Below, piece after piece: positions 10,027 to 30,873 of a stretch of DNA of 36,658 nucleotides. Position 1 is the first letter of the stretch. Every line of letters begins with the position of its first letter. The notes under the pieces are model-generated. The model was given only the letters and a program-made list of their open reading frames with translations, made no database searches and had not been told where the DNA came from. Source of the stretch: Acidimicrobiaceae bacterium (GTDB lineage Bacteria > Actinomycetota > Acidimicrobiia > Acidimicrobiales > Ilumatobacteraceae); contig CANNMD010000007.1 in assembly GCA_947505655.1 (NCBI GenBank), positions 1 to 36,658 of the forward strand. Reading direction: 5' to 3'. The translations under genes and the position numbers were made by a program.

Positions 10027-11235
10027 CTAGTAGGGGAGGTCGAGGCGCAGCATGCGAATGGCATTGCCGCGAGCGATCTTGTAGACCGTTTCATCGTCGA
10101 GGTCGACGATCTGGTCGCGGAAGATCTGCTGCGTATCGGGCCACGTGGAGTCGGTGTGCGGGTAGTCGGTCTCGAAGGTGACGTTGTTGACGCCGATGCG
10201 GTGCAGGCTTTCGAGGCCGTGACGATCGCGGTAGAAGCAGCCGTAGATCTGACGGAACCAGTAGGTGCTCGGTGGCTCAGGAACCAGATCGCGAACGCCG
10301 CCCCATGCGCGGTGCTCGTTCCACACGTCGTCGACGCGCTCGAGGATGTAGGGGATCCAGCCGATCTGACCCTCGCTGTAGGCCAGGCGAAGGCCGGGGT
10401 AGCGAACGAGCAAGCCGCTGAACAAGAAGTCGCTCAGTGAGCTCATTGCGTTGCCGAAGCTGAGGGTGGCGGCAACGGCCGGAGGCGCATCGGACGAAGT
10501 GGCTGGCATCTGCGACGAGGAACCAATGTGCATGCACACGATGGTGTCGGTCTCGGCGCACGCCTGGAAGAAGGGCTCCCAGTATCCGCTGTGCAGCGAT
10601 GGCAGGCCGAGCTTGGCTGGGATCTCGCTGAACGCTACGGCAGTGACGCCGCGTGCAGCATTGCGGCGAATTTCGCGTGCTGCTGCCTCAACATCCCAGA
10701 GCGGAACGATTGGCAACGGGATGAGACGCCCGCCCGAATCGCCACACCACTCTTCGACCATCCAGTCGTTGTAGGCGGTGACGCAAGCGGCAGCGAGGTC
10801 TTTGTCGCGTGCCTCGGCAAAGGTCTGCCCGCAAAAGCGCGGCATGGTTGGAAAGCACAACGAGGCTTCGACACCGTCGATGTCCATGTCGGCGAGACGA
10901 GCCTTGGGGTCGTAGCAACCGGGGCGCATTTCGTCGTAGGTGATGGGCGACATCGTCATGTCGTCGCGGGCGAAACCAACAGCAGCCACGTGGCGCTTGT
11001 GGGGTGCAATGAGGTCTTCGTAGAACCAGCAATCGGACTTCGGTGCGTCGTCGTCCCACTGGAAGTCGTACTTGGTGCCGCCGAGGTACTTCATGCCGGC
11101 GATGCCACGTCGCTCAACGCGAGGTGCGTCGGGGTGATTGCGGAACTTTGCGGGGAGCCACCGCTCGAACAGATGGGTCGGCTCGACAACATGATCGTCG
11201 ACGCTGATGATCTTGGGAATTACGCGCTCGCTCAT
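10027..11235 (-). CDS. Amidohydrolase family 2 (ACMSD-like) protein
   Basis: 402 aa; PKIISVDDHVVEPTHLFERWLPAKF, ADMDIDGVEASLCFPTMPRFCGQ, FETDYPHTDSTWPDTQ. Confidence 0.87.
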   Translation of the reverse strand: MSERVIPKIISVDDHVVEPTHLFERWLPAKFRNHPDAPRVERRGIAGMKYLGGTKYDFQWDDDAPKSDCWFYEDLIAPHKRHVAAVGFARDDMTMSPITYDEMRPGCYDPKARLADMDIDGVEASLCFPTMPRFCGQTFAEARDKDLAAACVTAYNDWMVEEWCGDSGGRLIPLPIVPLWDVEAAAREIRRNAARGVTAVAFSEIPAKLGLPSLHSGYWEPFFQACAETDTIVCMHIGSSSQMPATSSDAPPAVAATLSFGNAMSSLSDFLFSGLLVRYPGLRLAYSEGQIGWIPYILERVDDVWNEHRAWGGVRDLVPEPPSTYWFRQIYGCFYRDRHGLESLHRIGVNNVTFETDYPHTDSTWPDTQQIFRDQIVDLDDETVYKIARGNAIRMLRLDLPY

Positions 11236-11286: not shown

Positions 11287-11303
11287 TCTGACACCGTATC
11301 AGA
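11287..11303. promoter_or_regulatory. Inverted repeat TCTGAC-ACCGT-ATCAGA, putative TetR-type operator (site 1)
   Basis: One-mismatch palindrome 52 bp upstream of the start at 11235; same motif occurs at 17050, 23290 and 30852. Confidence 0.7.
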
Positions 11304-13289: not shown

Positions 13290-13931
13290 TCAGCGGCCAG
13301 TGAGCGAGCGATACACAAGCATTGCCAGCGTGTCGCGCATCGAGCTTGAGGGTGCTCCGCGTCGGGCGATCTCGTTGCGATACGGAAGCAGTCGCTCGAT
13401 CATCGCAATCATCGCGGTGGCGGTAACAAACGGGTGCATCTCGGCGGGCAGACGTCCGGCCGCTTGGGCCTGCTCGACCATGTGACCCATCGAGGGGATG
13501 AGCACGAGGTTGGCGCGTGAGCGGGCCTCGCGAAACGCAGCGTTGCCTTCTTCGGCTTTCAGGTTGCGCACTCGCAGCACGGCGCTGTGGTCGTCCCAAA
13601 ACGTGATGTAGGCATCGACAAACGCTTGAGCGCGCTGCAACCCGTCGCCGTCTTGCCACGGATCGGACAGGTGTGAAACCAGCGGCGCTTCGTCGAGAGT
13701 TGCCAACTCGGTGAGGGCCAAGATGGCGGCGTCGACATCGACGAAGTATTGGTAAAACGTGGCAGGCGACGAGCCGATTTCGCGGGTGATGTCGACGATA
13801 CGCAACTCCAGCACGCCGGCCTCGGACAGCAACTTTGCCGTGGCCTCAAGCAGCTTGGTTCGAGTGCTTTCGGCCCGTGAGCCAAGTACGCGCCCGTCGG
13901 CACCCAAAATGGTCTTGTTCGGACGTGCCAC
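13290..13931 (-). CDS. TetR family transcriptional regulator
   Basis: 213 aa; N-terminal HTH STRTKLLEATAKLLSEAGVLELRIVDITREIGSSPATFYQYFVDVDAAI; GTG start with GGGAGAAG RBS. Confidence 0.88.
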   Translation of the reverse strand: MARPNKTILGADGRVLGSRAESTRTKLLEATAKLLSEAGVLELRIVDITREIGSSPATFYQYFVDVDAAILALTELATLDEAPLVSHLSDPWQDGDGLQRAQAFVDAYITFWDDHSAVLRVRNLKAEEGNAAFREARSRANLVLIPSMGHMVEQAQAAGRLPAEMHPFVTATAMIAMIERLLPYRNEIARRGAPSSSMRDTLAMLVYRSLTGR

Positions 13932-13949: not shown

Positions 13950-14849
13950 CTATGAACCGTACACGGGAGTGGGGTCGGGAGCCGACTGCAGCAGATCGCT
14001 GACCAGCGGTCCGATCTCGGCGGGCTCGAATCGGGCGCCCTTGTCGAACACCGCGCCGTGGTGCCAGCCATCGGCAACGCTGAGTTGGCCGCCAGCGATC
14101 TCGAACATGCGACCCGACACGCCGCACATCTCGGAACCGAGCCACACCACCAATGGGCTGATGTTGGCGGGGTCCATTGAGTCGAAGCCTTCTTCGGGTT
14201 TGCGCATCATGTCGGCAAAGGCTTCTTCGGTCATGCGGCTGCGCGCCGAAGGGGCGATGCCGTTGACGAGAATGCCGTAGCGGCCGAGTTCTTGCGCTGC
14301 CACGATGGTGAACCCAGCGATGCCAGCCTTGGCAGCCGAGTAGTTGCCTTGCGAGACGCTGCCAAAGAGACCAGCGCCCGACGATGTGGTGACGACGCGG
14401 GCCTGCACTGGAGACCCAGCTTTGACCTGTGCGCGCCAGTAGTCGATGGCGTGACGAACTGGGCAGAACATGCCGCGCAGGTGCACCTTCATTACGGCGT
14501 CCCACTCGTCGACCGACATATTGACGATCATGCGGTCGCGCACGATGCCGGCGTTACACACCACGGTGTCGAGACGACCGTAGACCTCGATGGTCTGGGC
14601 GATGAGGTGACCAGCTTGGTCCCAATCGCTGATGTCGTCGCCGTTCACGATGGCGTCTCCGCCAAGCGAGCGAATCTCTTCGACCACTTCTTGCGCAGGC
14701 GACAAGCTGCCGCCGCTGCCATCGAGTTCGGCACCCACGTCGTTGACCACGACCTTGGCGCCCTCGGCCGCAAACGCCATTGCGTGAGCGCGGCCAAGGC
14801 CACGTCCGGCTCCGGTGATGATGACAACTCGGTTGTCGCAAATACCCAT
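13950..14849 (-). CDS. SDR family oxidoreductase with C-terminal extension (MFE-2/17beta-HSD4-like)
   Basis: ITGAGRGLGRAHAMAFAAEGAKVVVNDVGAELDGSGG, NAGIVRDRMIVNMS, NYSAAKAGIAG, C-terminal PTPVYGS. Confidence 0.9.
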   Translation of the reverse strand: MGICDNRVVIITGAGRGLGRAHAMAFAAEGAKVVVNDVGAELDGSGGSLSPAQEVVEEIRSLGGDAIVNGDDISDWDQAGHLIAQTIEVYGRLDTVVCNAGIVRDRMIVNMSVDEWDAVMKVHLRGMFCPVRHAIDYWRAQVKAGSPVQARVVTTSSGAGLFGSVSQGNYSAAKAGIAGFTIVAAQELGRYGILVNGIAPSARSRMTEEAFADMMRKPEEGFDSMDPANISPLVVWLGSEMCGVSGRMFEIAGGQLSVADGWHHGAVFDKGARFEPAEIGPLVSDLLQSAPDPTPVYGS

Positions 14850-14858
14850 GATGGCCTC

Positions 14859-15809
14859 CTACAACGCTGCCGAAAATGCGGCAGCGTGTTCGTCGCTGTT
14901 TCCGAAGTGGGTGTCGAGCACACACGCGCGTTTCCAGTAGCGCTGTGCGTCGACCTCCCAAGTAAAGCCCATACCGCCGTGCACCTGAATGCCGGTCTTG
15001 CCGCAGAACAGGGCGCTGTCGCCAGCAAGCATCTTGGCCATGCGCGCGGTTTGCATCAGGTCGGTGCTGTCGCCGCGGCCGTCGATGTTTACCGCTGCGG
15101 CGTACACCGCTGCGCGAGTGACCTCGGCCTTGGTGAGCATGTCGGCGAGCAGATGCTTCACGGCCTGGAACGAACCAATGGGCCGACCGAATTGCTCGCG
15201 CTGCATCGCGTATTGCTTGGCGAGGTCGATGCTGGCGAGGCACAGACCCAGTTGCAGCGCGGCGGTGAGCACCATGCCGTCGCGGTGCCAGACGTGCGCA
15301 GCGGCCGCATCGGCGATGAGCTTGCCCTGCGGCAGGTGGCTGACCGCAGTGATGGGCGTGAGCGCGTCGAGCGGCCGCTCGGCATGCACGCCGATGACCT
15401 CGGCGGGATCCACCACGAAGAGACCTTCGGGGCGCACCACGATGAGATCGTCGAGCGATGCGAGGTGCTCGGCAACATTCACTGGCTCGCTGGGCTCAAT
15501 GAGACCAACGATGCGTGAGCCGTTGGCGGCCGCTGGCATCAGCGTTGCGGCGAGGTGCGAGGCCACGAGCGGACCAGCGACTAGCGACCGGCCAAGCTCT
15601 TCGAAAGCGAGCACAGATTCGGTCATGCCGAAGCCATCGGCGCGCAGGCTGAACACACCCACGGCGCCAAGTTCTTGCCACAGCGCACGATCGAGTGCGC
15701 CGCCGGTTTCTTCGTTGGCGCGCACCACATCGATGGTGCAGCGGCCGGTGAGGAACGAACGGATGCCCTCTTGTAGTGAGCGTTCGTCGTCGTTGAGTTC
15801 GAAGTCCAT
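14859..15809 (-). CDS. Acyl-CoA dehydrogenase, short subunit
   Basis: ORF track overextended; ATG at 15809 gives MDFELNDDERSLQEGIRSFL...QREQFGRPIGSFQAVKHLLADM...QVHGGMGFTWE (316 aa). Confidence 0.85.
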   Translation of the reverse strand: MDFELNDDERSLQEGIRSFLTGRCTIDVVRANEETGGALDRALWQELGAVGVFSLRADGFGMTESVLAFEELGRSLVAGPLVASHLAATLMPAAANGSRIVGLIEPSEPVNVAEHLASLDDLIVVRPEGLFVVDPAEVIGVHAERPLDALTPITAVSHLPQGKLIADAAAAHVWHRDGMVLTAALQLGLCLASIDLAKQYAMQREQFGRPIGSFQAVKHLLADMLTKAEVTRAAVYAAAVNIDGRGDSTDLMQTARMAKMLAGDSALFCGKTGIQVHGGMGFTWEVDAQRYWKRACVLDTHFGNSDEHAAAFSAAL

Positions 15810-15814
15810 TCGCG

Positions 15815-17002
15815 TCAGCGCTCCTTCGGAAGGCCAAGAATGCGCTCGGCCACAATGTTGCGCTGCACCTGAGAGGTGCCCGCAGCAATGCCGAGCGAAA
15901 GGGCATGAATGCGCCCGTGCACATGAGCGTGCGTGGGTAGGTCGGCGATGTCGTCGATACTCAACGACGCGCGGTCGAGTAGATGCATCGCGAGTTCGCC
16001 AAGGCGTGAACGAAGCTCGGCGTAGGCCAGCTTGAACACGTTGCCACCAGGCCCCACGAGGCCGGTGCGCTGAGCTTGGCTGATGTTGCGCTTGGTCAGC
16101 GCCCACAGTGCATCGAGCTCGGCGCAGATACGGCCAATGTCGCGGCGCAAACCGGCGTCGTCCCAAGCGGTGACACCGTTGCGGGTCACCCGCTTGGCGA
16201 GCTGGGCGAGATCTCGGGCGAGTTCCATCGACTGCAACATCTCGCTCACAAACGCGGTGCCGCGCTCGAAGCTCAGCGTGACCATCGCGACGCGCCAGCC
16301 GTCGTTTTCGTCGCCAACGCGGTTGGCTACTGGCACACGCACTTCGTCGAAGAACACCTCACAGAATTCGGTGCTGCCCTCGAGCGTGCGCAGCGGACGC
16401 ACGTCCATTCCGGGCAATCCCATCGGCACGATGAGCCACGTGATGCCGCGGTGCTTGGGCACGTCGGTGTCGGTGCGCACGAGCATCTCGCAGTAGTCGG
16501 CGGTGTGGCCGAAGCTGGTCCAAATCTTTTGTCCGCTAATGACGTAATCGTCGCCATCGCGAATGGCTCGGCAACTGAGGCTGGCCAAGTCGCTGCCAGC
16601 ACCCGGCTCGCTGAAACCCTGACACCAGATGTGCTCGCCTTTGAGAATTGCGGGCAGGTGGAATGCTTTCTGCTCGGCTGAGGCCTCGGTGATGAGGGTG
16701 GGGCCGGCGTGCAGCAGACCAACGAAGTTCTGGCCGACGTATGGGGCGCGGGCGCGCTCGGTCTCTTCGAGAAAGATGAGGTGCTCGGTTGGGGTGGCGC
16801 CAAGACCGCCGTATTCACGGGGCCAGTTGATGCCAGCGAAGCCCGCATCGAACAGCATGCGTTGCCACATCGAGTCGTACTCGCGGCGACCGATCCAGTC
16901 GTTGCGATGCGGCTCGTGAGGCAGCTGTGGAATGACCGAGCTCAGCCAGTCGCGAAGCTTCAGACGGAACGAGTTTTCGGCATCGGTAAATTGCAGATCC
17001 AC
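15815..17002 (-). CDS. Acyl-CoA dehydrogenase, long subunit
   Basis: 395 aa; NWPREYGGLGATPTEHLIFLEE, CQGFSEPGAGSDLASL, SGQKIWTSFGHTADYCEMLVRT, SFERG. Confidence 0.9.
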   Translation of the reverse strand: MDLQFTDAENSFRLKLRDWLSSVIPQLPHEPHRNDWIGRREYDSMWQRMLFDAGFAGINWPREYGGLGATPTEHLIFLEETERARAPYVGQNFVGLLHAGPTLITEASAEQKAFHLPAILKGEHIWCQGFSEPGAGSDLASLSCRAIRDGDDYVISGQKIWTSFGHTADYCEMLVRTDTDVPKHRGITWLIVPMGLPGMDVRPLRTLEGSTEFCEVFFDEVRVPVANRVGDENDGWRVAMVTLSFERGTAFVSEMLQSMELARDLAQLAKRVTRNGVTAWDDAGLRRDIGRICAELDALWALTKRNISQAQRTGLVGPGGNVFKLAYAELRSRLGELAMHLLDRASLSIDDIADLPTHAHVHGRIHALSLGIAAGTSQVQRNIVAERILGLPKER

Positions 17003-17049: not shown

Positions 17050-17066
17050 TCTGACGATGCGTCAGA
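17050..17066. promoter_or_regulatory. Inverted repeat TCTGACG-ATG-CGTCAGA, putative TetR-type operator (site 2)
   Basis: Perfect 7-bp arms, 48 bp upstream of the start at 17002. Confidence 0.78.
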
Positions 17067-22058: not shown

Positions 22059-23267
22059 TTACTTCAGATGATCGATGTGCAGCATCTTGATGGCGTTGCC
22101 GCGCACCAACTTGTAGACCACTTCATCGGAAAGGTGCGACATCTGCTCAGTTGCGATCTTGGCGGTGTTCGGCCAGGTGCTGTCGCTGTGCGGGTAATCG
22201 CTCTCGTAGGTCACGTTGTCGACGCCAATGGCATCGAGGTTCTGGAGCCCGTGTGGATCGTCGAAGAAGCAACCGTAGACGTGACGCTTGAACAACTCGC
22301 TCGGTGGCTCAAGCACCTTGTCGGCGATGCCGCCCCAGCCGCGGTTCTCTTCCCACACCGTGTCGGCGCGCTCGAGAATGTATGGGATCCAGCCGATCTG
22401 GCCTTCGCTGTAGGCGATGGTGAGATCGGGGAACTTTGTGAAGATGCCACTCATCAACCAGTCGACCATGCTGAAACAGCAGTTCGCGAACGTGAGCGTT
22501 GAGCCAACTGCCGCGGGTGCGTCGGGCGAGGTAGACGGCATCTTTGAGCCGCTACCGATGTGCATGTTGATGGTGGTCTGCGTTTCGTTGCAGGCCTCAA
22601 AGAACGGCAGCCAGTAACCATCGGCGTCGTGGATGCTGGGCAGACCGAGGTTGGCCGGAATCTCGCTGAAGCACACGGCGTGCACACCGCGTGCAGCGTT
22701 GCGGCGAACTTCGCGTGCTGCTTCAACTGGGTCCCACAAAGGAATCAAGGTGAGGGGCAGCAAACGCCCGCCCGAAAGCCCGCACCATTCTTCGACCATC
22801 CAGTCGTTGTATGCCTGCACGCACAACAACCCGAGTTCTTTGTCGGCAGCCTCGGTGAAGGTCTGGCCACAAAAGCGAGGGAAGGTGGGGAAGCACAACG
22901 ACGCTTCGATGCCGTTGATGTCCATGTCGGCGAGTCGCTCGGGCAACAGGTAGGAACCCTGGCGCATCTCGTCGTAGGTGATGCCCTTGAGCGTGACTTC
23001 GTCGCGCGAGAAACCAACGGCAGTGTCGAGGCGGGTGAGTGGACGACGAAGATCTTCGTAGAACCACCAGTCGACGAGTTCGCCTGGATCGCCCTTGTCT
23101 CCGGGGATCGCAGTGAACTTGCCGCCAATGAAGGTCATTTCTTTGACGGGACGGCGTTCGATTCGGGGACCGATGTCTCGGTACTTCGATGGTAAACGGT
23201 CGGACCACACTGTGGCTGGCTCGATGACGTGGTCATCGACCGAGATGATCTTGGGCAACTCGCGCAT
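22059..23267 (-). CDS. Amidohydrolase family 2 (ACMSD-like) protein
   Basis: ATG at 23267 (MRELPKIISVDDHVIEPATVWSDRLPSKY); MDINGIEASLCFPTFPRFCGQTF; YESDYPHSDSTWPNT; close paralogue of 10027..11235. Confidence 0.87.
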   Translation of the reverse strand: MRELPKIISVDDHVIEPATVWSDRLPSKYRDIGPRIERRPVKEMTFIGGKFTAIPGDKGDPGELVDWWFYEDLRRPLTRLDTAVGFSRDEVTLKGITYDEMRQGSYLLPERLADMDINGIEASLCFPTFPRFCGQTFTEAADKELGLLCVQAYNDWMVEEWCGLSGGRLLPLTLIPLWDPVEAAREVRRNAARGVHAVCFSEIPANLGLPSIHDADGYWLPFFEACNETQTTINMHIGSGSKMPSTSPDAPAAVGSTLTFANCCFSMVDWLMSGIFTKFPDLTIAYSEGQIGWIPYILERADTVWEENRGWGGIADKVLEPPSELFKRHVYGCFFDDPHGLQNLDAIGVDNVTYESDYPHSDSTWPNTAKIATEQMSHLSDEVVYKLVRGNAIKMLHIDHLK

Positions 23268-23289: not shown

Positions 23290-23306
23290 TCTGACGGTCT
23301 GTCAGA
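23290..23306. promoter_or_regulatory. Inverted repeat TCTGAC-GGTCT-GTCAGA, putative TetR-type operator (site 3)
   Basis: Perfect 6-bp arms, 23 bp upstream of the start at 23267, in the intergenic region shared with the divergent SDR at 23430. Confidence 0.78.
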
Positions 23307-26005: not shown

Positions 26006-26833
26006 TCACGACACGGCCGCGCTGCGTGCGCATCGAAACCCGGTGTGGCAGGCGGGTTCAGATCGTGGTTGTGCGTGTCGTGCTGCTGGTCGATACCGAG
26101 CGCAGTAGTTGGCGGCGCACAGAAATGATCCGCCCTTGGTGGTTGCCGAATCGGTAGATGTTGTCGAGCAACACGGCGAAGCGGCGGACGTTGAATCGTG
26201 ACGCTCGGCCCATGTGTCGCTGGTCCATTCCCACACGTTGCCCAGCATGTCGAACAGTCCGCGGCTGTTGGCCGCAAAGCTGCCGACAGGCATGGTCGAT
26301 GGCTGGCTCCTGCGAATGTGCTTCCACGGAAACTCGCCCAACCACACGTTGGCTAACAGCATGCCGTCGGCTGCGAGCGGCCATGTGGCCGGTAGCTGAG
26401 TGCCATCGTTGGCTGCCCACTCCCACTCGACCTCGGTGGGTAGGCGACGGCCAGCCCAACGTGAATACGCAATGGCATCGCGCTGCGACACCTGCACCAC
26501 CGGGTGATCGTGATGCTCGGCCGTGAGTTCGTCGGTGCCGCGCGGTCGTCGCCAAGAGGCCGCAGGTTCGTGCCGCCACCACAAAGAAGGCTGGCTCAGA
26601 TCGACCGCGGCGCTGGCCGGCACAAAGACGTTGCCGCCGTGCTGCTCGCCATCGGTGATGTAGCCGGTGGCAGTCACAAACTCAGCGAATTGTGCGTTTG
26701 TCACTGGGTGCTGATCGATGAAGAAGCCGTCGACGTTCGCCGTGCGCGACGGCCGCTCTTCGGGATAGTGATGATCGTCGCCAATGGTGGCGAGGCCCGA
26801 CGGAACCCACAGCTCGGGTGCCGCCAGGGTCAT
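26006..26833 (-). CDS. Formylglycine-generating enzyme / sulfatase-modifying factor family protein
   Basis: PVTNAQFAEFVTATGY, RLPTEVEWEWAAN, GLFDMLGNVWEWTSD, KGGSFLCAANYCARYRPAARH...TGFRCA. Confidence 0.92.
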   Translation of the reverse strand: MTLAAPELWVPSGLATIGDDHHYPEERPSRTANVDGFFIDQHPVTNAQFAEFVTATGYITDGEQHGGNVFVPASAAVDLSQPSLWWRHEPAASWRRPRGTDELTAEHHDHPVVQVSQRDAIAYSRWAGRRLPTEVEWEWAANDGTQLPATWPLAADGMLLANVWLGEFPWKHIRRSQPSTMPVGSFAANSRGLFDMLGNVWEWTSDTWAERHDSTSAASPCCSTTSTDSATTKGGSFLCAANYCARYRPAARHAQPRSEPACHTGFRCARSAAVS

Positions 26834-27462
26834 TGCTTGAGCAGTGTGGACGGCGCTTTGAGTGCGCCAACGCTCATGTCGATCAAGTTCACGATGAACT
26901 GCTCAGTAGACACGGGCAGCGGCTTCGCCAGGTCGATCTGACGAGCGCGCAGCGCCAAGGCATCGGAGACCAACATCAAGAATGTGGTCACGCGCTCGTG
27001 GCGCAGTTCGGCAGGGAGTTCGCCAAGTGCACCGGTGAGCATAAAGAACGCTGCTTGCGCCTGCGTCGGGGTGTTGGGCGTGGCGAGTTCCCATGCATCG
27101 AACAGGTCTGACAGTTGGGCGACGATGCGCAAGAACTCGCGGCCATCGCTGGTGTCGAGTTTGCGGGCGAACGGCAGCACCACTGCGCGGGTGATGGCTG
27201 CGACATCGTCGGTGATCCCAAGCGTTCGAATCTCGGCGAGCATCTGAGCGCGTTCGGACTCGATGCTTTCGTTGTGGAGTTCGATGATCGCCTGCAGAAG
27301 CCCGTCGCGTCCACCGAAGTGATAGTGCAGAGCAGACGAGTTCTTCTGGCCGGCCTGATCGACCACGAGGCGCAGCGGCACGCGGAACACACCTTGTTCG
27401 GCGAACAAGCGCTGCCCGTGCAGGATCAGCTTGTCTCGCGTGTCGTTGGCCGTTCGGGTCAC
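26830..27462 (-). CDS. TetR family transcriptional regulator
   Basis: TRDKLILHGQRLFAEQGVFRVPLRLVVDQAGQKNSSALHYHFGGRDGLLQAII HTH region; 4-bp overlap with the FGE-like gene. Confidence 0.88.
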   Translation of the reverse strand: MTRTANDTRDKLILHGQRLFAEQGVFRVPLRLVVDQAGQKNSSALHYHFGGRDGLLQAIIELHNESIESERAQMLAEIRTLGITDDVAAITRAVVLPFARKLDTSDGREFLRIVAQLSDLFDAWELATPNTPTQAQAAFFMLTGALGELPAELRHERVTTFLMLVSDALALRARQIDLAKPLPVSTEQFIVNLIDMSVGALKAPSTLLKQ

Positions 27463-27471
27463 GCTGTCACC

Positions 27472-27951
27472 CTACGCGCCGTTGAACGACGGAGCCGTCT
27501 TGCCCTGCATCTCGCACAGCATTCGATAGGCGGCCGCAATGCTGCCGGCGTCGGTGATCGACACGATGTTGTCGTCGTCATCGAGGTTGAGGTTGGCGCC
27601 GTTCATCACGAAGAAGACCTCGGTGGTCTCGGTGTTGTCGGCCGGCACCACAAGGGTGTGCATCGAGCCGGCTGGCTCGTGCACAAAGCTGCCGGCTTCG
27701 TAGCGCACGCCGTACTCGCTGTACATCCAGCATCCAGCAGTGGTCCACGCGAACACCGGGCCGGTGTGCAGGTGGCGCTGTGCGGCCATACCTGGCTCGA
27801 ATCGATTGGCGATGACCCAGATACCTGCAGCGATATCGACGTGAACAAGACGAAGCTCGCCTCCGGGTATGGAAACCCAGGGCGAGCTTGTCTCATTCAA
27901 GTGGCTGATCGCGAGGCCCAGATGCCCCGGACCGAGATTGGCGTTTGACAT
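27472..27951 (-). CDS. Cupin-domain protein (2,4'-dihydroxyacetophenone dioxygenase-like)
   Basis: 159 aa; RHLHTGPVFAWTTAGCWMY...YEAGSFVHEPAGSMHTLVVP cupin pattern. Confidence 0.75.
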   Translation of the reverse strand: MSNANLGPGHLGLAISHLNETSSPWVSIPGGELRLVHVDIAAGIWVIANRFEPGMAAQRHLHTGPVFAWTTAGCWMYSEYGVRYEAGSFVHEPAGSMHTLVVPADNTETTEVFFVMNGANLNLDDDDNIVSITDAGSIAAAYRMLCEMQGKTAPSFNGA

Positions 27952-27986: not shown

Positions 27987-28931
27987 TCATCCGTTGCTGT
28001 CGGTGCTCGTGCCGTTCTTGTTCTTGTTGCTGTTTGAGCCGCCTTTGTTTGAGCCGCTTTCGTCGACGATGCTTGTCGATGGGACGGTGACCTGGCCGGG
28101 GACCGTGACTTGAGCAACGGTGCTCTCGGTCGAATCGTCGGAATCGTCGTCGTCGCTTGAGTCGTCGATGCTGCTCGAGGTGACTGAGTCGTCTGAGCCG
28201 TGGCCGCCGATGATGCCGCCATTGTCGTCGCCGTCATCGCTTGAGTCGTCGCCAACACCGTTGCTCGAGTCATCGTCGACCGAAGCACAGAAGTCGGTGA
28301 CGGTCATGCCCGCTGCTGCAGCGACATCGTCGAGGCTCTGCGAAGGAGTGGCTGAATCATCGGTTGATGAGGTGGTTGAATCATCGGTTGATGAGGTGGT
28401 GCCGAGGTCCTCACAGAGATCGTGGTTCACCTTGCTGACGCGGCTGGCGCTGTCGCCGCCGTTGTCGTCGAACGAGTTGTCGGTGGAGTTGTCGTCGGCC
28501 GAGTTGTCAGTGGCGGTGTCGTCACTGGCGAGTGCCGAGTTGTCGTCGGCGCTCTTTTCGGGGTTCGAGATCTCGATGCCGATGTGCGACACGGCCCGAG
28601 ACACGGCTGATTGAGCTGAGTCGGGCAACACGCCACCGGCGGCTGCGGCGGTGGCCGAGAAAAGGACAACACCGGAAATGATGGCGGCCTTGGTGGCGGC
28701 CTTGGAAGTGGCGAAACGCTGACGCATGGAATTGCTCCTGAAAGAGATGACGTTGGATGGAACTGGGGTCATCGCTTGCTGCATCGCCAAAACGATGCTG
28801 CCCTCGGCAGCGAGTTCCTCTGTGGTTGCGTCGGCCCGTGCGGCGTTGAAAAGATCGATCAGGTGTTGATCGATTGGATCGTTGCTGTCTGTGAGGTCGA
28901 ACACGTTGAAGAGATCGTCTGAGCCGTCCAT
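27987..28931 (-). CDS. Membrane protein, putative anti-sigma-like partner of the adjacent sigma factor, with Asp/Ser/Thr-rich exported tail
   Basis: Single hydrophobic segment AAIISGVVLFSATAAAAGG after a ~90 aa N-terminal region; long low-complexity D/S tail; starts 4 nt after the sigma gene stop. Confidence 0.6.
   Translation of the reverse strand: MDGSDDLFNVFDLTDSNDPIDQHLIDLFNAARADATTEELAAEGSIVLAMQQAMTPVPSNVISFRSNSMRQRFATSKAATKAAIISGVVLFSATAAAAGGVLPDSAQSAVSRAVSHIGIEISNPEKSADDNSALASDDTATDNSADDNSTDNSFDDNGGDSASRVSKVNHDLCEDLGTTSSTDDSTTSSTDDSATPSQSLDDVAAAAGMTVTDFCASVDDDSSNGVGDDSSDDGDDNGGIIGGHGSDDSVTSSSIDDSSDDDDSDDSTESTVAQVTVPGQVTVPSTSIVDESGSNKGGSNSNKNKNGTSTDSNG
28353..28400. repeat. Two perfect tandem copies of a 24-bp unit (TGAATCATCGGTTGATGAGGTGGT)
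   Basis: Read directly; encodes TTSSTDDS-TTSSTDDS within the D/S-rich tail. Confidence 0.95.
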
Positions 28932-28935
28932 CGCG

Positions 28936-29520
28936 TTACAACAATCTTTCGGAATATCTCTCCGCTAGCCGGCGAGTGGCCCGATGCTGGGTCACTCGAA
29001 CCCAGCCAGCGTCGTGTCCGAGCAGCTCAGCGACCTGATCGACGCTGAGATCGCCCAATGTGCGCAGCAACATAACTTCGGCCTGGTCGTCGGTAAGGGC
29101 GCTGGTAATCAGGTTCACAGCGTCTTGCGCCGACAGTTTGTCGATGGCCACTTGCTCGGTAGAGGCCGAGCTACCGTCGTCGATATCGGCGGTTGGGTCG
29201 GTGCGTCGACGCGTGGCCGTGCGGCGCGCATCGATCATTCGCAAGCGCGCGATGGTGAACAACCACGAGGCGAACTCTGAGGTGTTGCCCTCAAAGGTTG
29301 CGAGGCGTTGAGCCACAGCCAACCATGTTTCGCTGGCGAGATCGTCGGCCAACCGGGGCTCGCGGGCGCGTAGGTAACGCAGCAGTCGTGGTTGATAGGT
29401 GCGAAACAGCGCGCTGAGGCCTGCTGCTTCGCCGCGTTGAGCGGCGCGCAGAGACAACTCATCGGGTGACGCGACGGGATCCGCAGCCACCTCGGGCTCG
29501 ACGCCCGCTGGTCTCCACAC
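28936..29520 (-). CDS. RNA polymerase sigma factor, ECF type
   Basis: LFRTYQPRLLRYLRAREPRLADDLASETWLAVAQRL (region 2), DDQAEVMLLRTLGDLSVDQVAELLGHDAGWVRVTQHRATRRLAE (region 4). Confidence 0.88.
   Translation of the reverse strand: MWRPAGVEPEVAADPVASPDELSLRAAQRGEAAGLSALFRTYQPRLLRYLRAREPRLADDLASETWLAVAQRLATFEGNTSEFASWLFTIARLRMIDARRTATRRRTDPTADIDDGSSASTEQVAIDKLSAQDAVNLITSALTDDQAEVMLLRTLGDLSVDQVAELLGHDAGWVRVTQHRATRRLAERYSERLL

Positions 29521-29625: not shown

Positions 29626-30873
<1,248 letters not shown>

Follow-up and report, generated by a model that had tools for sequence, protein, structure and literature searches.

Gene layout and features of the window

The window (the whole stretch of 36,658 nucleotides of Acidimicrobiaceae DNA analysed here) includes a run of four minus-strand genes in the order ACAD-ACAD-SDR-TetR, in which two acyl-CoA dehydrogenases (ACADs) are followed by an SDR and, as the last gene, by a TetR-type regulator (13290–13931, referred to below as TetR 13290). 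The gaps within the run are 5 bp (ACAD-ACAD), 9 bp (SDR-ACAD) and 18 bp (SDR-TetR). The features that bear on its regulation are the following.

13290–13931, minus strand: TetR regulator (TetR_N + TetR_C_38), the proposed reader of the motif (based on the ORF, domain matches and cross-genome co-occurrence)
13950–14849, minus strand: SDR of the NCBIfam PRK07791 subfamily (463 bits, cut-off 373)
14859–15809, minus strand: acyl-CoA dehydrogenase, small subunit type, IpdE2/PimD-like (under the equivalog cut-offs)
15815–17002, minus strand: acyl-CoA dehydrogenase, large subunit type, PimC-like (under the equivalog cut-off)
17050–17066, unstranded: perfect predicted operator TCTGACGATGCGTCAGA, fronting the ACAD-ACAD-SDR-TetR run, 47 bp before the ACAD start
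23290–23306, unstranded: perfect predicted operator, 22 bp upstream of an amidohydrolase (22059–23267, minus strand)
30852–30868, unstranded: perfect predicted operator, 53 bp upstream of a thiolase (29626–30798, minus strand)
11287–11303, unstranded: one-mismatch predicted operator, 51 bp upstream of an amidohydrolase (10027–11235, minus strand)
26830–27462, minus strand: the other TetR of the window, a rival candidate that is not favoured

The coordinates and the minus-strand orientation bear out the preliminary description, which had placed TetR 13290 18 bp downstream of the SDR at 13950, in the same direction as the ACAD-ACAD-SDR genes, with a perfect site at 17050 upstream of them all. 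A longer same-strand run ending in TetR 13290 starts at the amidohydrolase 22059–23267 (minus strand) with site 23290 before it, so that TetR 13290 may be served by two predicted operators (17050 and 23290).

The ORF 13290–13931 (minus strand) starts with a GTG codon and encodes 213 aa. The protein combines a TetR_N helix-turn-helix (27.1 bits, above the curated cut-off of 24) with TetR_C_38, an all-helical C-terminal ligand/dimer domain (74.5 bits vs. a cut-off of 23.9). AlphaFold predicts a confident TetR fold (pLDDT 92.5, pTM 0.84), to which EthR is the nearest solved one (TM 0.77, 21% identity). The predicted recognition helix (SPATFYQYF) shows no variation in 20 orthologues sharing 32–45% identity with TetR 13290, and the N-terminal arm (DGR..G.R...TR) is likewise invariant across them, as expected if all orthologues read one common operator; the residues of these two elements would touch DNA.

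The palindrome in the genome and across relatives

The core of the motif, TCTGAC-N5-GTCAGA, is a 17-bp inverted repeat (extended consensus WTCTGACRNNNYGTCAGAW). Its exact form occurs 15 times in the whole assembly (2.76 Mb in 282 contigs, 85% complete), while the reversed, uncomplemented control gave 0 occurrences. Nearly all of these sites are intergenic and lie a short way upstream of genes for acyl-CoA catabolism; only one falls inside a called gene (L026 4066), whose start has probably been misplaced in the gene call. The genes at or soon behind the sites encode acyl-CoA dehydrogenases, SDRs, thiolases, AMP-binding CoA ligases, Amidohydro_2 proteins, an enoyl-CoA hydratase, OB-fold/ChsH2-like proteins, an aldehyde dehydrogenase, a P450, a Rieske oxygenase, luciferase-like enzymes and a periplasmic substrate-binding protein. 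A common motif thus stands before many catabolic operons, as in a KstR-like control of a dispersed acyl-CoA catabolic regulon, and comparison over some 100 related genomes indicates that TetR 13290 reads this palindrome before at least 15 operons of lipid- or steroid-like breakdown. Two contigs (C164 and C181; L030 174, L031 4136) carry near-identical Rieske oxygenase starts with identical operators, representing either a recent duplication or two strains within the assembly.

Co-occurrence of orthologues with the motif, suggested as a check in the preliminary description, was assessed in 99 genomes of the order (orthologues of TetR 13290 being defined by E at most 1e-12) and favours this TetR. 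Exact sites are present in 32 of the 99 genomes (reversed control in 2/99) and an orthologue in 30. The orthologue is found in 19 of the 21 genomes with at least two sites vs. 11 of the 78 others (OR 58, Fisher p 8e-11), an association that is partly phylogenetic; counted by family with the genome under study left out, it gave p 1e-5, albeit from family-level counts that are not fully independent. Orthologues occurring where the motif is absent, which would have told against the assignment, were also sought. Eight of the 30 orthologue-bearing genomes have no exact core site, yet seven of these (G012, G028, G038, G045, G062, G078 and G094) revealed sites in a search with the extended motif allowing one mismatch, vs. 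0 of 12 orthologue-free control genomes. The remaining genome, G069, matches TetR 13290 only weakly (26% identity), and the extended-motif search found no site in it. Conversely, two genomes (G004 and G077) contain 3 and 5 perfect sites, respectively, before the usual kinds of target genes, with no TetR 13290 orthologue in either assembly (a profile search brought up no more than distant TetRs whose helices differ); since both drafts are 90–93% complete, this absence may reflect missing sequence.

The same pairing was observed at the level of individual loci. Orthologue loci were picked blind to the motif, a site being defined by a score of 12 or more of 14. We found 32 sites in 432 kb of orthologue loci from the order set, 54 sites in 515 kb from the non-Streptomyces loci of the genome_contigs set and 36 sites in 280 kb from Streptomyces (0 for the reversed consensus in each case), that is, 122 sites vs. 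0 over all orthologue loci together. In 15 loci of other TetRs (49 kb) no such site was found. A site stands directly upstream of the orthologous TetR gene itself in G001 (perfect, 17 bp away), G019, G045, G095, G096, L167, L169, L177, L183 and others, and upstream of the TetR operon in G016, G053, G061, G023, G072, L154, L159, L166, L176 and L180. By sequence placement, an operator before the regulator's own gene or operon is therefore kept in relatives, as in autoregulated TetRs, and the placement directly before the TetR gene in distant relatives agrees with the earlier suggestion of a (putative) repressor encoded in its own target operon. TetR-bearing units have a site in 49% of cases vs. 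22% for neighbouring units (p 9e-5), a test that is only moderate and biased because the neighbours are often regulon members themselves.

In Streptomyces coeruleorubidus we counted 35 sites (up to one mismatch) vs. 0 in the control, about 10 of them within 87 kb around the orthologue, which lies near 4.205 Mb; gene calls in Streptomyces are unreliable (high GC, wrong frames), and only site positions and clear protein starts were used there. Overall, the motif occurs in or near orthologue loci of Acidimicrobiia, Streptomyces, Frankia-type and Myxococcota/gammaproteobacterial assemblies. The pairing also appears in loci labelled Myxococcota, Deltaproteobacteria and Pseudomonadales, which could be misbinned as they are metagenome-assembled. 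Four loci titled Bifidobacterium breve (L148, L149, L157 and L174) encode orthologues 44–59% identical to TetR 13290, and these titles are probably wrong.

Which protein reads the motif

Position alone is indecisive between the two TetRs of the window, because both lie behind perfect sites. The preliminary description had seen no copy of the motif in the operon of TetR 26830, which has to be corrected: the run from 30798 back to 26006 (all minus strand, gaps at most 106 bp) includes TetR 26830, and its first gene, the thiolase 29626–30798, is preceded at 53 bp by the perfect site 30852. This run may be split by an ECF sigma factor and a ChrR-type cupin; together with an unmatched 314-aa protein these genes (28936–29520, 27472–27951 and 27987–28931) stand between the thiolase and TetR 26830 and are a possible separate stress-response unit. 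It is very improbable that TetR 26830 (26830–27462) reads the motif. Its place behind site 30852 and a weak co-occurrence with genomes of at least two sites (OR 2.9, p 0.04, compared with p 8e-11 for TetR 13290, the regulator proposed in the preliminary description and supported as such by the genome comparison) speak for it, but it was not found in 12 of the 21 motif-rich genomes, seven of its orthologue loci (L224–L230) are free of sites scoring 12 or higher, and the ECF sigma factor and ChrR-type cupin in its run suggest separate control.

The genome has 26 TetR_N matches in total, and the motif could in principle be read by one of the other 24, or by a DNA-binding protein of another family, with TetR 13290 being only a passenger of the regulon. 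The regulon of G004 and G077, present without a TetR 13290 orthologue in the draft assemblies, would fit such a scheme. We nevertheless consider it unlikely, as the association of the TetR 13290 type with the motif holds across phyla, and among the other-type TetR genes fetched only one has a credible upstream site, located in an intergenic region shared with a TetR 13290 orthologue. It is hardly conceivable that the palindrome arose by chance and that its arrangement is coincidental: isolated sites in several genomes without an orthologue may be accidental, but neither the 15 exact sites of the genome under study nor the 122 sites of the orthologue loci have a single counterpart among the reversed controls. 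There is, finally, a small chance that TetR 13290 binds the motif as an activator or in a mixed role. Some TetR regulators act as activators, and the sequence evidence is compatible with activation; on the other hand, sites close to start codons, some of them over the presumed -35/spacer region, suit occlusion.

Taken together, these comparisons make TetR 13290 very probably the autoregulated repressor of a genome-wide catabolic regulon, with TCTGAC-N5-GTCAGA as its presumed binding site. A TetR 13290 dimer would bind the 17-bp inverted repeat upstream of catabolic genes and repress them by occlusion. As TetR 13290 is located in its own target operon, it would also control its own synthesis through site 17050. 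Its release from DNA may be triggered by one of the pathway's acyl-CoA intermediates, as happens with other TetRs that control acyl-CoA catabolism. In 221 oriented sites the operator stands a median of 38 bp from the start codon, and TAnnnT hexamers are over-represented 16–18 bp behind the left half-site (CTGACR), with 25 cases vs. about 3 expected. In some promoters the operator thus appears to extend over the -35 region. The hexamer enrichment also suggests that the left half-site serves some promoters as their -35 element.

Relation to known regulators

In mycobacteria, a large regulon for lipid/cholesterol degradation is controlled by KstR (Rv3574; PMC1995591). Both KstR and TetR 13290 are TetR regulators associated with a dispersed lipid-degradation regulon and a palindromic operator, although repression by TetR 13290 is presumed here. 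Their identity was rejected, TetR 13290 having no match to the NCBIfam KstR equivalog NF033703. The core of the KstR operator, AAC-N2-GTT, is unlike TCTGAC-N5-GTCAGA. EthR of M. tuberculosis (PDB 1t56, 3tp3), the closest solved fold, is only a weak sequence match, and an assignment of TetR 13290 as EthR was likewise rejected (EthR C-terminal domain 20.0 bits, below the cut-off of 27). The EthR operator is described as larger and as no simple palindrome (PMC4482099), unlike the one proposed for TetR 13290. BkaR, KstR2 and other mycobacterial TetRs, some of which control acyl-CoA catabolism, have inverted-repeat operators (PMC4482099, PMC3920632), as proposed for TetR 13290.

The literature search returned no paper with this motif string (a comparison of text strings, the published logos in Table 2 of PMC4482099 being images), and short fragments of the motif gave only incidental matches in unrelated papers. 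Neither PF19352 nor TetR regulons of Acidimicrobiia turned up in any relevant paper, with most subscription journals lying outside the search and earlier work being possible. The arrangement as such is ordinary, whereas no description of the regulator, operator and regulon of TetR 13290 was found in the literature searched. We see an even chance that they represent an undescribed master regulator with the reach of KstR and an operator of its own, governing a regulon for steroid- or terpenoid-type acyl-CoA catabolism in Acidimicrobiia, Streptomyces and certain lineages of proteobacteria, and disseminated across phyla along with its operators. The substrate class is only weakly indicated as steroid- or terpenoid-type compounds, by the ChsH2-like and IpdE2-like proteins and by a KstR-like neighbour in three relatives.

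The pair offers a testable regulator and operator for a catabolic regulon of the largely uncultured Acidimicrobiia, and genetically tractable Streptomyces, which have both orthologues and sites, make binding, deletion and ligand accessible. Through the common operator, genes without a known role, such as those for amidohydrolases, luciferase-like enzymes and OB-fold proteins, could also be placed in a single pathway.

In the three relatives just mentioned (L120, L123 and L127, from G045, G088 and G043, respectively) the KstR-like TetR is encoded divergently beside the TetR 13290 orthologue and scores 139–148 bits, below the equivalog cut-off of 280. In G045 a near-perfect site lies in the intergenic region between the two genes.
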